Below, piece by piece: positions 9,000-14,130 of a stretch of 64,000 bases of DNA; positions within the stretch are counted from its first letter, which is position 1, and each line of letters opens with the position of its first letter. The position numbers and the translations under genes are program-made. The notes under the pieces were generated by a model. That model saw nothing but the letters and a program-made list of their open reading frames with translations, had not been told where the DNA came from and ran no database searches. Origin of the DNA: Magnetococcales bacterium (GTDB lineage Bacteria; Pseudomonadota; Magnetococcia; Magnetococcales; UBA8363); the NCBI GenBank assembly GCA_002753515.1, contig PEAK01000014.1, positions 1-64,000 on the forward strand, in the 5' to 3' direction.

Positions 9000-10502
9000 T
9001 TATCGCCTGCCGTCAAACCCAAGTGCCAGTAGATGGTGTCGCGCCCAGTGCCGATCATCGAAGGGTGTCGTCCCCCGCTCCGTGATTTGCACCGTCTCAT
9101 GGCCTTTGCCAACGAGTAAAACACAATCCCCCTCCCGGGCCAGGGACAGGGCATGACCAATGGCCTCAGCCCGGTCGGGAATCTCTTCCGCGCGATTGCC
9201 ACTCCGCGCCACTCCGTGCAGTATGGCGGAACGTATCCCTTCAGGGGATTCCATACGCGGATTGTCGTCGGTCACAATGACCCGGTGCGCCAACCGCCCG
9301 GCCAACTCGCCCATGATGGGACGTTTGCCGGTATCGCGATTGCCCCCGCACCCGAATACCACACAGATACGGCCCTCACCCATCATGCCGGCAACCGTTT
9401 CCAACAGAGTTTCCAAAGCATCGGGGGTATGGGCGAAATCGACGAAAACACGGAACGGCTGTCCCATATCAACCGGTTCCATGCGCCCCGGCTGCGGAAC
9501 AAACGATGCCAATCCCAGGCGAATCGCCTCCAGACCGGCCCCCATGCACCTGGCCATCGCCGCCGCCGCCACCGCATTGGCCACATTGAACATGCCGCAC
9601 ACCGGCAGATGAATTGGCTGCGATCCCTGCGGCGTCTGTAGCACAAAATCGCTGGCCGCCCAACCCGGGTTGCTGTTGACAACCCCATACCGTCCCGGCT
9701 CCGGCGGCGACTTCAGGGTGAATCCCAGCACTTCCGAGTGCGAATCGGCCAACTTGGCGAGTTCGAGACCATGGGGATCGTCCAGATTGATGATGGCATA
9801 ACGGGGGGGACGATCCAGGAACAAGCGTGCCTTGGCGGCGAAATAGTGGGCCACATCGCCATGATAATCCAGATGGTCCTGACTTAAATTGGTGAACACG
9901 GCGCTGTGCCAGGGTATGGCTTCGGTACGTTGTTGTTGCAAGGCGTGCGACGAAACCTCCATGACCACCGCATGGCAGCCATGATCCCGCATGCGAGCCA
10001 GAATGCCATGCAACGTCTCGGCATTGGGGGTGGTCATGCCAGTGTCCCCGGTCATGCCCGGGGCACGAATCCCCGTGGTACCAATAACCCCGGTTGCCAC
10101 CCCGGCCTGGCTCAATATCGCTTCAACCATGGCGGCAACCGTTGTCTTGCCATTGGTCCCGGTAATCCCCGCCATGGTCAGCGCCTGCGATGGGTGACCA
10201 TGGAATGCCGAAGCCAACCGAGACAAAGCTTTGGGCGAATCGGTGTGTACCAGATGGGCCAGCGATGCCGGTATTTCGGCCTCCCCCTGATCCAAGACCG
10301 CAACCGCGCCGCGCCGCAGGGCATCGTCAACGAACAACGTCCCACGGGTACGCCATCCCGGCAATGCCGCAAACAAATACCCCGGGCGAACCAATCGCGA
10401 ATCGCTGGTGATGCCAGAAATCTCCCGGTCACTCCCCACAAGTCGCAACTCGGGAAGAGCCGACAAATCGATCAATCGGGAAACGGAAGGCATACGGTTC
10501 AT
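9000..10502 (-). CDS. murE: UDP-N-acetylmuramoyl-L-alanyl-D-glutamate--2,6-diaminopimelate ligase
   Basis: MurE adds the third residue of the stem peptide. The C-terminal motif DNPRMESPEGI contains the DNPR signature associated with meso-diaminopimelate specificity, rather than the L-lysine form, consistent with a Gram-negative wall. Other hallmarks are GITSDSRLVRPGYLFAALPG near residues 29-48, the ATP loop GITGTNGKTTVAAMV, EVSSHALQQQR, NLSQDHLDYH and VDFAHTPDALE. The 500-residue length is normal. Start 10502 overlaps the ftsI stop by four bases (ATGA), indicating coupled translation. Confidence 0.97.
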   Translation of the reverse strand: MNRMPSVSRLIDLSALPELRLVGSDREISGITSDSRLVRPGYLFAALPGWRTRGTLFVDDALRRGAVAVLDQGEAEIPASLAHLVHTDSPKALSRLASAFHGHPSQALTMAGITGTNGKTTVAAMVEAILSQAGVATGVIGTTGIRAPGMTGDTGMTTPNAETLHGILARMRDHGCHAVVMEVSSHALQQQRTEAIPWHSAVFTNLSQDHLDYHGDVAHYFAAKARLFLDRPPRYAIINLDDPHGLELAKLADSHSEVLGFTLKSPPEPGRYGVVNSNPGWAASDFVLQTPQGSQPIHLPVCGMFNVANAVAAAAMARCMGAGLEAIRLGLASFVPQPGRMEPVDMGQPFRVFVDFAHTPDALETLLETVAGMMGEGRICVVFGCGGNRDTGKRPIMGELAGRLAHRVIVTDDNPRMESPEGIRSAILHGVARSGNRAEEIPDRAEAIGHALSLAREGDCVLLVGKGHETVQITERGTTPFDDRHWARHHLLALGFDGRR

Positions 10503-13500
10503 TGCATGATCAACCTGGGCGGCCCTTCCGTAGGTGTTTCCAGGGATTTCACCACGCCGGAACCGCTAACCTGGGGAATAATCCCTTTCTTTCCCAAAAT
10601 TTCCAACGCTTGTCCCAAGCTGACATTTTCCACCGCTTCGGAATCTGCGGGCACGGGATCCATCATGTCGGGGAGCGGCGGATCGGTATGCGTATCGGGA
10701 AAAATGGAGAGACGGGGAAGGATCTCCTGAGCAATCTCCTTGAAAACCGGGGCCGCCACCTTACCGCCGTAAATCACCCCGACCGGTTCGTCAATAGAGA
10801 CAAAAATAACAACCTTTGGCTTTTCAACCGGGATGAACCCGACAAAGGAGGCGTAATATTTCCCACGGACATACCCCTGCCCGGGAATGGCCTTACGCGC
10901 CGTACCGGTTTTACCACCCACCTGGTATCCATCCACCGCCGCCTCAATGGCGGTCCCTTCGTCAGTGACCACCGATTGCAAAATCTTCCTTAATTTTTTC
11001 GATGTGTCTTCGCTGATCACGCGATGTGGTGGTGGTTTTTGTTTCATGGGAACCACAATGCCATCGACAATTTTCCCTTTGATCAGCGTCGGCGGATAAT
11101 AGATCCCCCCATTGATCGATGCGGCAAAGGCCGTGGTAATGTGCAACGGCGTGGTCGTGATACCATAGCCATACGAACGGTTGGCCAAACCGACTTTACG
11201 ATAGTGGGTCACATCGGGTATGACGCCGCTGGGATCGGAAGGCAACTCAATACCACTCCGTGATCCAAAACCAAACTGACGAATATAGTGATCTTGCTGC
11301 TCCAAACCCAAACCCAGGCCAATCTTGGCAGCACCCACGTTGGAACTGCGCTGCAAAACCTGACTGACACTCAAATAACGCGTCCCACGGTGAAAGTCGG
11401 TGATCACCCGGTCGGCAACCCGGGTTTTACCATATTCAATGTCGATGATGGTTTCAGGGGTGACCGTTCCCTTGTCCAAAGCGGCGGCAACGGTGAACAC
11501 CTTGAACGTCGATCCCGGCTCAAAAAGGTCGGTGACCACACGATTGCGCCGATCATTGGATTTGGAATGGGCCAGATTGTTGGGGTTGAAGCTGGGTTGA
11601 TTGACCATGGCCAGGATTTCGCCATTGTTGGAATCCATGACCACAGCCATGCCCGCCTTTGCCTGGCTGTTTTGCACCCCTTTCAGCAGGGCGCGATAAG
11701 CGATGTATTGAATGGTGGTATCAATGGTGGTGGACAAATCCACCCCGGGATGCGGCTCCGTAACCGTCCTGACCATGGGCATGGGCCGCCCCAGGCGGTC
11801 GTGACTGATCACCTGCGCCCCATTCACCCCGTGTAGTTCATCCTCAAAGGAGCGCTCCAACCCTTCCCGGCCCCGCCCCTCGAAATTGACAAAACCCAAT
11901 ATGTGCCCGGTAACCTCCCCCATGGCGTAAAATCTTCGGCTTTCAGGAAAGAAAAACAGGGCATGATGATCCAGGTTACGCACCTTGCGGGTAATTTCCG
12001 GGGTCAGTTGGTGCTTGATCGTCGGATAGGTGCCCGCCTTGAAGGAACGCAACTTGCTACGTAATTCTTCCACGGGCATGCCGATGATATCGGCCAGATT
12101 GTTGGCCAGATGATCCCGATCCTCGACCTGATCCATCTCCACGGACAGGGCATTCATCGGCAGGCTGATGGCCATTGTCCGACCATGCCGATCCAAAATA
12201 CGCCCACGGGATGCCGTCAATGTAATTTTTTTCTTGTGCTGGCTACGCGCTTTCTGCTGCAGATAGTCGGCCTGAATCACAGTCAAATCAAAGGCACGCA
12301 ATGCCAGAACACTGAAAGCCAACACAAAAAAACCAAGCATGAAAGTCAGGCGGGCCTGGGGATTGGTTTTATCCACATAGGGGGTACCGGCCGGTCCGAA
12401 TACCGGCCCACGGACGAACGAGCTGCGCAATACCGCCTTATCCCGGCTTTTACGTGTCATCAGTCGTTGGAATAACGACGGCCCCTCCCGCGGAGCCGGT
12501 CCGCGGAACATGGGTACCTTGGGCAAGGAGGGCCGGGGAGCCGGGGCCCTGGATGCGGGAGGCGGCGTTACAGGTGCCGAGGAACGGGGGGTCGGCTCAA
12601 CCGAACGCCCTCGTTCCCGTTGCGACTCCCGGCTGAGAAGACGCTCCATGAGCGGCGATGTCGCGGAACTCCGGGATGAGGGGGCGTATTCCCGTTGAGA
12701 AGCCGCAGGGAATTGGGGGGCAGTGGATACGGTACGACGGGCTTCCCTGGGCGACGTCGACCTGGCCGGCCTGATCACCTTGCTTAACAAGCCTTGCAAC
12801 AAGCCCGCCCCGGTTCGCAAACCGGAACTCCCTTTTTCCCGGGCCGAGGACGTTGCCGCAGTGCCCGCAGAACCCCTGGACGAGGAGGGTACCGTAGCGC
12901 CCCTTGGCGAGGGTCGCGATGATGCGGAAAACTCCCCGCCATATGTCCTGGGCATCCTTTCAGCGACACTCGGCGGCGTGGGGGGGGCTGGCGGCTCCTC
13001 GTCGTACGCCGGGTGATCGTGCCCGCTATCGTGATCAAAATGGGAGCTGGAAAAAGTCTCTTCCGGTTCGGCACGCTCTCCCCGTGCCACCATCGGCTCC
13101 GAACGCTCAACCGATTCCCCGGTGCCATGCTCGACCTCGCGCCGACCGGGCCGCAAGCGGGACAGCATCCCTCCCAGCAATCGCGAACTCGCAGGTGGTA
13201 CTTCCTCCGCAGGCGGAACACGCTTGCCAAATACGGGGGGTTGCACCCCTGCCTCATGATCGGGGACATCCTCGGCAGGAGCAGGTGCCCTGCCCCTGCC
13301 AAAAATTGAACCACCCAATCTGCCAGACGACTTGCTGACGGCCGCATCCCCTTCCACAGGTCCCCGTCTCTCAGAAACGGCTGGAGACGTGCCACCCAAA
13401 TCCCGCAACCGTCCAAAAAGAGAGGATGAACGCTCTGGTGTACCCTTCCCGGAAGGGGCGGGCGCCTGCCGCTCACCGTGGGTGAACGGCGGCGTCATCT

Positions 13501-13864
13501 CTTCGGAGGGTGACTTGGATGCAACGGGTCTGGCTGTTGCGGAGTTGTCCAACAGCCGGTTCAACAAAGACTTTTGTTCCTGCTGCGGATAGGGTGGAAT
13601 GGTCTCCCTGCTTGTGGCGGGGGGAATCGGCACCGCTGCCGGACGTCGGGTATTTGCACCGGGCAACACCGCACTCAACAGGCGTTGCAACAAGGATCCC
13701 TCCTGCCGCCGGCGGTTCACCGCCCCCGACATGCGCACCGCAGTCGCCCGTTGTTGCACCGGCTTCCGACGCACCACGGCACCACTCTGACGTTTCGCCA
13801 ACGATTTGCGATCAGGGGGATCCGGCCGGTGACGGTTTTGCCTTAAGGGAGGGGCCATCGTCAA
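10499..13864 (-). CDS. ftsI: Septal transpeptidase FtsI (PBP3) with a giant N-terminal extension
   Basis: FtsI cross-links septal peptidoglycan in partnership with FtsW. The catalytic part is typical: a transmembrane anchor at about 504-524, a PBP dimer domain with RGRILDRHGRTMA, the transpeptidase motifs SxxK (GSTFKVFT), SxN (RSSNVG) and KTG (GGKTGTARK), and a C-terminal PASTA-like segment. At 1121 residues it is nearly twice the usual 550-650. The excess is about 500 residues of Pro/Ser/Arg-rich, probably disordered cytoplasmic sequence before the anchor. Within it a short amphipathic motif recurs eight times (for example SLLQRLLSAV at 57, SLLNRLLD at 99, SLFGRLRDLG at 148, PLMERLLSRE at 404, SLFQRLMTRK at 463). 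The frame is continuous, and the start overlaps the ftsL stop by four bases, so the extension is not a mis-called start. Confidence 0.95.
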   Translation of the reverse strand: MTMAPPLRQNRHRPDPPDRKSLAKRQSGAVVRRKPVQQRATAVRMSGAVNRRRQEGSLLQRLLSAVLPGANTRRPAAVPIPPATSRETIPPYPQQEQKSLLNRLLDNSATARPVASKSPSEEMTPPFTHGERQAPAPSGKGTPERSSSLFGRLRDLGGTSPAVSERRGPVEGDAAVSKSSGRLGGSIFGRGRAPAPAEDVPDHEAGVQPPVFGKRVPPAEEVPPASSRLLGGMLSRLRPGRREVEHGTGESVERSEPMVARGERAEPEETFSSSHFDHDSGHDHPAYDEEPPAPPTPPSVAERMPRTYGGEFSASSRPSPRGATVPSSSRGSAGTAATSSAREKGSSGLRTGAGLLQGLLSKVIRPARSTSPREARRTVSTAPQFPAASQREYAPSSRSSATSPLMERLLSRESQRERGRSVEPTPRSSAPVTPPPASRAPAPRPSLPKVPMFRGPAPREGPSLFQRLMTRKSRDKAVLRSSFVRGPVFGPAGTPYVDKTNPQARLTFMLGFFVLAFSVLALRAFDLTVIQADYLQQKARSQHKKKITLTASRGRILDRHGRTMAISLPMNALSVEMDQVEDRDHLANNLADIIGMPVEELRSKLRSFKAGTYPTIKHQLTPEITRKVRNLDHHALFFFPESRRFYAMGEVTGHILGFVNFEGRGREGLERSFEDELHGVNGAQVISHDRLGRPMPMVRTVTEPHPGVDLSTTIDTTIQYIAYRALLKGVQNSQAKAGMAVVMDSNNGEILAMVNQPSFNPNNLAHSKSNDRRNRVVTDLFEPGSTFKVFTVAAALDKGTVTPETIIDIEYGKTRVADRVITDFHRGTRYLSVSQVLQRSSNVGAAKIGLGLGLEQQDHYIRQFGFGSRSGIELPSDPSGVIPDVTHYRKVGLANRSYGYGITTTPLHITTAFAASINGGIYYPPTLIKGKIVDGIVVPMKQKPPPHRVISEDTSKKLRKILQSVVTDEGTAIEAAVDGYQVGGKTGTARKAIPGQGYVRGKYYASFVGFIPVEKPKVVIFVSIDEPVGVIYGGKVAAPVFKEIAQEILPRLSIFPDTHTDPPLPDMMDPVPADSEAVENVSLGQALEILGKKGIIPQVSGSGVVKSLETPTEGPPRLIMQ

Positions 13865-14130
13865 TCACCCATGGGTAGCCACTGATCGTGGCGCAACGGT
13901 TGCATCCCCAATTCTTCCCGGGCACGCCGTTCGATGGCGTTCAGATCGGTACGCGTCACCAATTCCAGCTTGAGCGCCTGTTCCCGATCCAGGTGCTGTA
14001 AATACAACTCCTCCTCGTTTCGCAACTCTCTATGGCTCGCCAACATCCAGGTCCTGGAGGTGACAATGATGGCCGCAGTCAGCACCAGGAGCAAAATTAA
14101 AAAGGCGGGGATAAACGTGTTTGGTTTCAT
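13861..14130 (-). CDS. ftsL: Cell division protein FtsL
   Basis: This 89-residue bitopic protein of the FtsQLB complex has a short cytoplasmic tail, one transmembrane segment (about 8-27), and a periplasmic coiled coil rich in Glu, Leu and Arg. Identification rests on size, topology and position between rsmH and ftsI, since the FtsL sequence is poorly conserved. Four-base ATGA-type overlaps occur at both ends, with rsmH upstream and ftsI downstream. Partner FtsB and FtsQ genes are not in the window. Confidence 0.85.
   Translation of the reverse strand: MKPNTFIPAFLILLLVLTAAIIVTSRTWMLASHRELRNEEELYLQHLDREQALKLELVTRTDLNAIERRAREELGMQPLRHDQWLPMGD

Follow-up and report, generated by a model that had tools for sequence, protein, structure and literature searches.

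In Escherichia coli, the septal transpeptidase FtsI (PBP3) is encoded in the dcw cluster beside ftsL and murE and combines a single transmembrane (TM) helix with a pedestal and a transpeptidase domain. As a rule, the part of FtsI that lies in the cytoplasm is regarded as negligible; mycobacterial FtsI is thought to be held by the scaffold Wag31 (DivIVA) through its cytoplasmic part. The cytoplasmic segment of the E. coli protein is short, and its residues 1-18 were omitted from a model of the complex because of low confidence (PMC10390529). Membrane attachment through short helices is known from other E. coli proteins, namely the membrane-targeting sequences (MTS) of MinD, FtsA and FtsY, for which the primary papers are cited in PMC6158289.

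The FtsI described here is encoded on a stretch of 64,000 nucleotides from a Magnetococcales bacterium (contig PEAK01000014.1, positions 1 to 64,000, hereafter the window), in which all features given below lie on the minus strand. Its ORF (10499..13858) encodes a class B penicillin-binding protein of 1119 amino acids with a long N-terminal tail, and shares with the E. coli protein the position in the dcw cluster, the single TM helix and both domains. The PBP_dimer pedestal (dimerisation) domain (PF03717, residues 548-693, 11780..12217) and the transpeptidase domain (PF00905, residues 736-1043, 10730..11653) both score above the Pfam cut-off, the TM anchor was placed by reading the sequence at about residues 504-521 (12296..12349), and the translation retains all three active-site motifs, SxxK, SxN and KTG, as STFK, SSN and KTG. 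In the minus-strand dcw cluster Pfam identifies murE, ftsI, mraW and secA, while ftsW, murD, mraY, murF and ftsL are calls from ORF sequence and position only; the gene order is that of a dcw cluster, with murE downstream of ftsI and, directly upstream, an ftsL-like ORF (13861..14130) of 89 amino acids with one TM segment. The protein is a genuine FtsI, ordinary and intact-looking in its catalytic part, with a predicted septal transpeptidase activity. The likelier start is the ATG at 13858, immediately after the ftsL-like ORF, with an alternative TTG two codons upstream. A contig scan retrieved one near-identical locus, on the Magnetococcales MAG contig JADGCN010000051.1, with a best segment 96% identical.

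The difference from the E. coli protein lies before the TM anchor, where the short cytoplasmic segment is replaced by 498 residues preceding NPQARLTF (residues 1-498, 12365..13858), rich in Pro, Arg, Ser and Ala, with a net charge of about +32 and an array of short motifs. A protein-level Pfam scan found the tail free of domains, no match was obtained against solved structures, phage records or plasmid records, and a search of the same genome at E values up to 10 found no second tail-like protein. The original prediction, made from the letters of the window, had described a disordered cytoplasmic tail of about 500 residues and eight motifs at residues 57, 99, 148, 186, 227, 354, 404 and 463. 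The tail has that character, and all eight motifs are present at these positions when counted from the TTG, or at 55, 97, 146, 184, 225, 352, 402 and 461 from the likelier ATG.

The tail opens with a basic, highly conserved N-terminus (RQNRHRPDPPxRKSxxKRQ, residues 1-30, 13769..13858). Numbered from the ATG, motif 1 is SLLQRLLSAVLP at residue 55 (13661..13696), motif 2 SLLNRLLDN at residue 97 (13544..13570), motif 3 SLFGRLRDLG at residue 146 (13394..13423), motif 4 SIFGRGR at residue 184 (13289..13309), motif 5 SRLLGGMLSRLRP at residue 225 (13148..13186), motif 6 AGLLQGLLSKVIRP at residue 351, given as 352 in the list above (12767..12808), motif 7 PLMERLLSRE at residue 402 (12626..12655) and motif 8 SLFQRLMTRK at residue 461 (12449..12478). 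Motif 4 is a weak copy, lacking the second hydrophobic pair. Spacing is mostly 38-59 residues, and 31 motif copies give the consensus [SP]-[LF]-[LFI]-x-R-L-[LF], in which the Arg is preceded most often by Gln and sometimes by Glu or Asp. Hydrophobic moments over 11-residue windows are mostly 0.4-0.65 and net charges range from 0 to +4, most motifs being net positive. At the DNA level motifs 1 and 6 still agree at 79% over a stretch of 28 nt, which hints at a duplication.

Such an array is not expected from composition. Motif patterns occur 5-8 times in the tail against 0.01-0.7 expected from 20,000 composition-preserving shuffles, and a position weight matrix (PWM) of the motif copies gives, at 12 bits or more, 6 matches in the tail against 1 in the window's 47 remaining ORFs, which total 19,558 residues; the 6 tail matches are not independent because the PWM was built including these copies. 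A PWM from the eight copies of the window's FtsI (G000) alone finds 4-6 matches per tail in four other species, against 0.4-0.5 in shuffles. Chance arising from a Leu/Arg/Ser-rich composition is ruled out by the shuffles together with these matches in other species.

Seven other genomes of the same genus have an FtsI sequence, six of them with a complete tail, G003 being left out since its contig ends inside the tail. Tail lengths in the seven complete members are 498 (G000), 500, 295, 261, 261, 302 and 290 residues; every complete member keeps the tail. All six orthologues with complete tails retain at least 5 positionally matching motifs while the linkers drift. Motifs 1, 2, 3, 7 and 8 align in all complete tails and motif 6 in all except those of G004 and G005, whereas motifs 4 and 5 lie within an insertion common to G000 and its nearest relative G001 only. 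Besides the motifs, the first 30 residues are the other strongly kept element across the genus. Within the motifs, the hydrophobic residues L, F, I, M and V interchange freely at orthologous copies.

The contrast between motifs and linkers is also seen in the codons. Between G000 and G001 the motif codons show 0 amino-acid and 6 silent changes, against 32 and 37 in the linkers, and between G005 and G004 they show 0 and 5, against 7 and 30 in the linkers, the latter pair alone not being significant (P = 0.35). Pooling both pairs, with motif boundaries drawn by hand from the sequence, amino-acid changes number 0/137 in motif codons and 39/562 in linker codons (P = 0.00025). The motifs are thus better conserved than the linkers, both in the ortholog alignment and in the codons. 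Of the two outcomes that the original prediction named as refuting it, close relatives without the tail and motifs conserved no better than the linkers, neither is seen within the genus. A wrong start codon or a non-coding tail is ruled out by the frame, which is kept genus-wide, by the linker dN/dS (0.31 and 0.08 in the two species pairs) and by the ATG adjoining the ftsL-like ORF. In one genome (L032, G007:C126) the FtsI match is broken into two pieces that differ in frame, which either a sequencing error or a true frameshift would explain.

An AlphaFold2 run on the alignment of the seven tails predicts a disordered tail (mean pLDDT 46) with only four local helices, at residues 56-64, 93-106, 403-415 and 462-467, coinciding with motifs 1, 2, 7 and 8. 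Local confidence at these helices is low (about 55-60), so that the prediction at 4 of the 8 motifs is support and not proof. Orthologues, codon changes and predicted structure support short helices repeated along a disordered tether, as the original prediction had it, and their conservation beside linkers that drift; the observation is confirmed, while its interpretation, discussed below, is partly supported.

Concerning the distribution beyond the genus, 27 FtsI tails from other Magnetococcales genera were compared, with start codons chosen automatically; this choice shortened two genus g1 tails (L006, L007), and the genus lengths were taken from a separate alignment. The 27 tails are mostly 45-101 residues long and all are basic. 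At least one PhiPhixxPhi stretch is found in 22 of them, against 12.2 in shuffles, a difference whose significance is optimistic because the sequences are related. Since most other Magnetococcales tails are short, basic and usually carry one amphipathic stretch, the array looks like a genus-level expansion, and the simplest reading of these sequences is that a short basic tail, in many cases with a single amphipathic stretch, is the old form and was expanded in one genus. Long tails of other composition occur in four members of genus g17 (L013-L016, 267-298 residues) and in G010 (L027, 311 residues); they contain other amphipathic or hydrophobic stretches and may be separate expansions.

At the phylum level, 120 Pseudomonadota genomes were sampled, 31 in the order and 89 outside it, of which 76 gave an FtsI match at E<=1e-60 and 13 did not. 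No tail of comparable length was found in these 76 genomes outside Magnetococcales, most being judged by frame length. The seven longest frames listed were read in sequence: in G119, G048 and G127 no more than 69 stop-free residues precede the TM segment, and in G063, G064, G083 and G095 the tails are of about 16, 50, 7 and 105 residues, the FtsI start there coinciding with the end of an upstream ORF, presumably ftsL, that contains a hydrophobic segment. For the other 69, a tail of at least 260 residues is excluded because the listed frames are only 572-703 residues long.

The motifs resemble known membrane-targeting helices. With the PWM of all motif copies, the top-ranked 7-mer is SWIKRLN in E. 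coli FtsA (of 414), GFLKRLF in MinD (of 264) and GFFARLK in FtsY (of 491), three stretches that are known membrane-targeting helices of these proteins. The ranking was not blind, the E. coli MTSs being in mind when the test was set; 11 of 600 column-permuted PWMs also place all three first, and because only these do equally well, the order of the residues counts in addition to their composition. Built from G000 alone, the PWM performs less well, with ranks of 4, 5 and 2 for FtsA, MinD and FtsY. The all-motif PWM also gives a high score to the C-terminal helix of a PopZ-like protein, so that to some degree it sees amphipathic helices generally. Within the order itself, a hydrophobic-hydrophobic-x-Arg-hydrophobic core, a pattern picked after looking at the sequences, is present in the FtsA C-termini of 24/24 distinct sequences listed (NVFQRLV, NVFQRMR). 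The MTSs of MinD, FtsA and FtsY and the FtsI motifs have in common the amphipathic core hydrophobic-hydrophobic-x-Arg-Leu. They differ in that the E. coli proteins have one such helix each, as ranked here, whereas the window's FtsI has many copies on one disordered tail in addition to its TM helix, and in that E. coli MinD and FtsA have a Lys before the conserved Arg, where the FtsI motifs mostly have Gln.

The reading we favour, to which we give about an even chance, is that numerous weak MTS-like helices keep the tail on the inner membrane, a binding we infer from sequence. The FtsI tail would have been lengthened in one Magnetococcales genus until it carried 5-8 short amphipathic helices along a linker that is basic and disordered. 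Each helix, disordered in solution, would fold on the anionic inner leaflet as do the MTSs of MinD, FtsA or FtsY, its Leu/Phe side dipping into the lipid while Arg/Lys residues sit at the headgroups; many such weak contacts would lay the tail flat along the membrane beside the TM helix of FtsI. A flat tail could add drag, or retain FtsI at the septal membrane, an effect on the dynamics or placement of FtsI that is speculative.

In favour of membrane binding are the array itself, beyond chance, the absence of amino-acid changes from the motif codons with silent changes in both classes, the tail predicted to be disordered with helices only at four motifs, and the first ranks of the E. coli FtsA, MinD and FtsY MTSs under the all-motif PWM, together with the core shared by the FtsA C-termini of the order; the net positive charge of most motifs, the basic character of every tail and the PhiPhixxPhi stretch in 22/27 tails outside the genus fit as well. 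The main objection is that FtsI, anchored by its own TM helix, has no obvious need of extra anchors. A serious rival, possible if rather doubtful, is a reading in which the motifs fold on a division protein (FtsA, FtsZ, FtsW or another scaffold) as a multivalent docking array that retains FtsI at the ring by avidity. A TM protein has a more obvious use for partner binding, and the conserved Arg-Leu core with its hydrophobic pairs, Ser/Pro at the N-cap and spacing mostly of 38-59 residues, suits a docking site, as does the conservation of motifs against linkers. A divergent second FtsA, present in 6/8 genomes of the genus and 0/33 other Magnetococcales, is a candidate partner, but this co-occurrence, confined to one clade and one phylogenetic event, is a single coincidence and not a correlation. 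Also against membrane binding are the Arg-Leu core, more fixed than a generic amphipathic helix requires, the Gln that mostly takes the place of the Lys of MinD and FtsA, the G000-only PWM, which does not place the E. coli MTSs first, and the AlphaFold2 confidence of only about 55-60 at the helices. Docking, in turn, is opposed by the free interchange of L, F, I, M and V at orthologous copies and, as its main objection, by the partner: none was found, and a search of eight genomes detected neither SepF nor DivIVA, unlike the mycobacterial case, where the scaffold is DivIVA. The MinD model TIGR01968 likewise gave nothing above its cut-off in these eight genomes. As between the two options named in the original prediction, docking array or membrane binding, sequence likeness leans towards the membrane, and the docking partner was not found.

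Two further readings are weighed. PopZ in Caulobacter is a client-binding condensate scaffold (PMC9512792), and the basic tail with its motifs might enter the condensate of an acidic, repeat-rich PopZ-like scaffold as a client, a hypothetical recruitment that we consider very improbable. PF10691 scores above its cut-off in three genomes (G000, G002 and G007), where the matching frames carry long Glu-rich repeats, and the C-terminal helix of the PopZ-like protein includes SMLQRLL (G002) or SMVQRLL (G006); against this, PF10691 is not reported for the G000 frame in the protein-level Pfam scan, and marginal matches are spread over the order (32/41 genomes at E<=0.05, 7 above cut-off) whereas the array is found in one genus. 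That the tail is under loose constraint, a basic disordered stretch serving as spacer or charge brush whose motif likeness is incidental, would suit linkers that evolve fast and vary in length and a tail that is short in most of the order, but is made very improbable by the 137 motif codons lacking amino-acid changes and by the at least 5 matching motifs in all genus members with a complete tail.

It should be noted, concerning the genes named above, that the second FtsA (G000:C126:13038-14141, L082; also in G001, G002, G005, G006 and G007) scores 232-257 bits, above the TIGR01174 cut-off. Its neighbours look different in G000 (L082) and G005 (L083), so that it is seemingly not in one fixed cluster; at a distance of about 3.5 kb from it, G005 and G007 encode an MreB-like actin of about 347-350 residues. 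The PopZ-like proteins with very long Glu-rich repeats (L090, 1465-3117, minus strand; L089; L101) have as their genomic neighbour a gene for a class I tRNA synthetase, read as valS.

The tail appears as a new variant on an ordinary FtsI, with a putative function suggested by sequence only. Should the favoured membrane-binding reading hold, an array of membrane hooks that can be expanded and that resemble the MTS helix of FtsA could position or regulate the septal transpeptidase, a proposal we make tentatively; control of FtsI by such an array was not found in the literature searched. Given that the cytoplasmic part of FtsI is so readily set aside, a lineage with an expanded and conserved array would offer a natural experiment on cytoplasmic or membrane contacts that control septal wall synthesis, for which the sister families with only a short basic tail provide the comparison. 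If true, this would be a case of sticker-and-spacer evolution in bacteria, in which the sticker is kept while the copy number changes.
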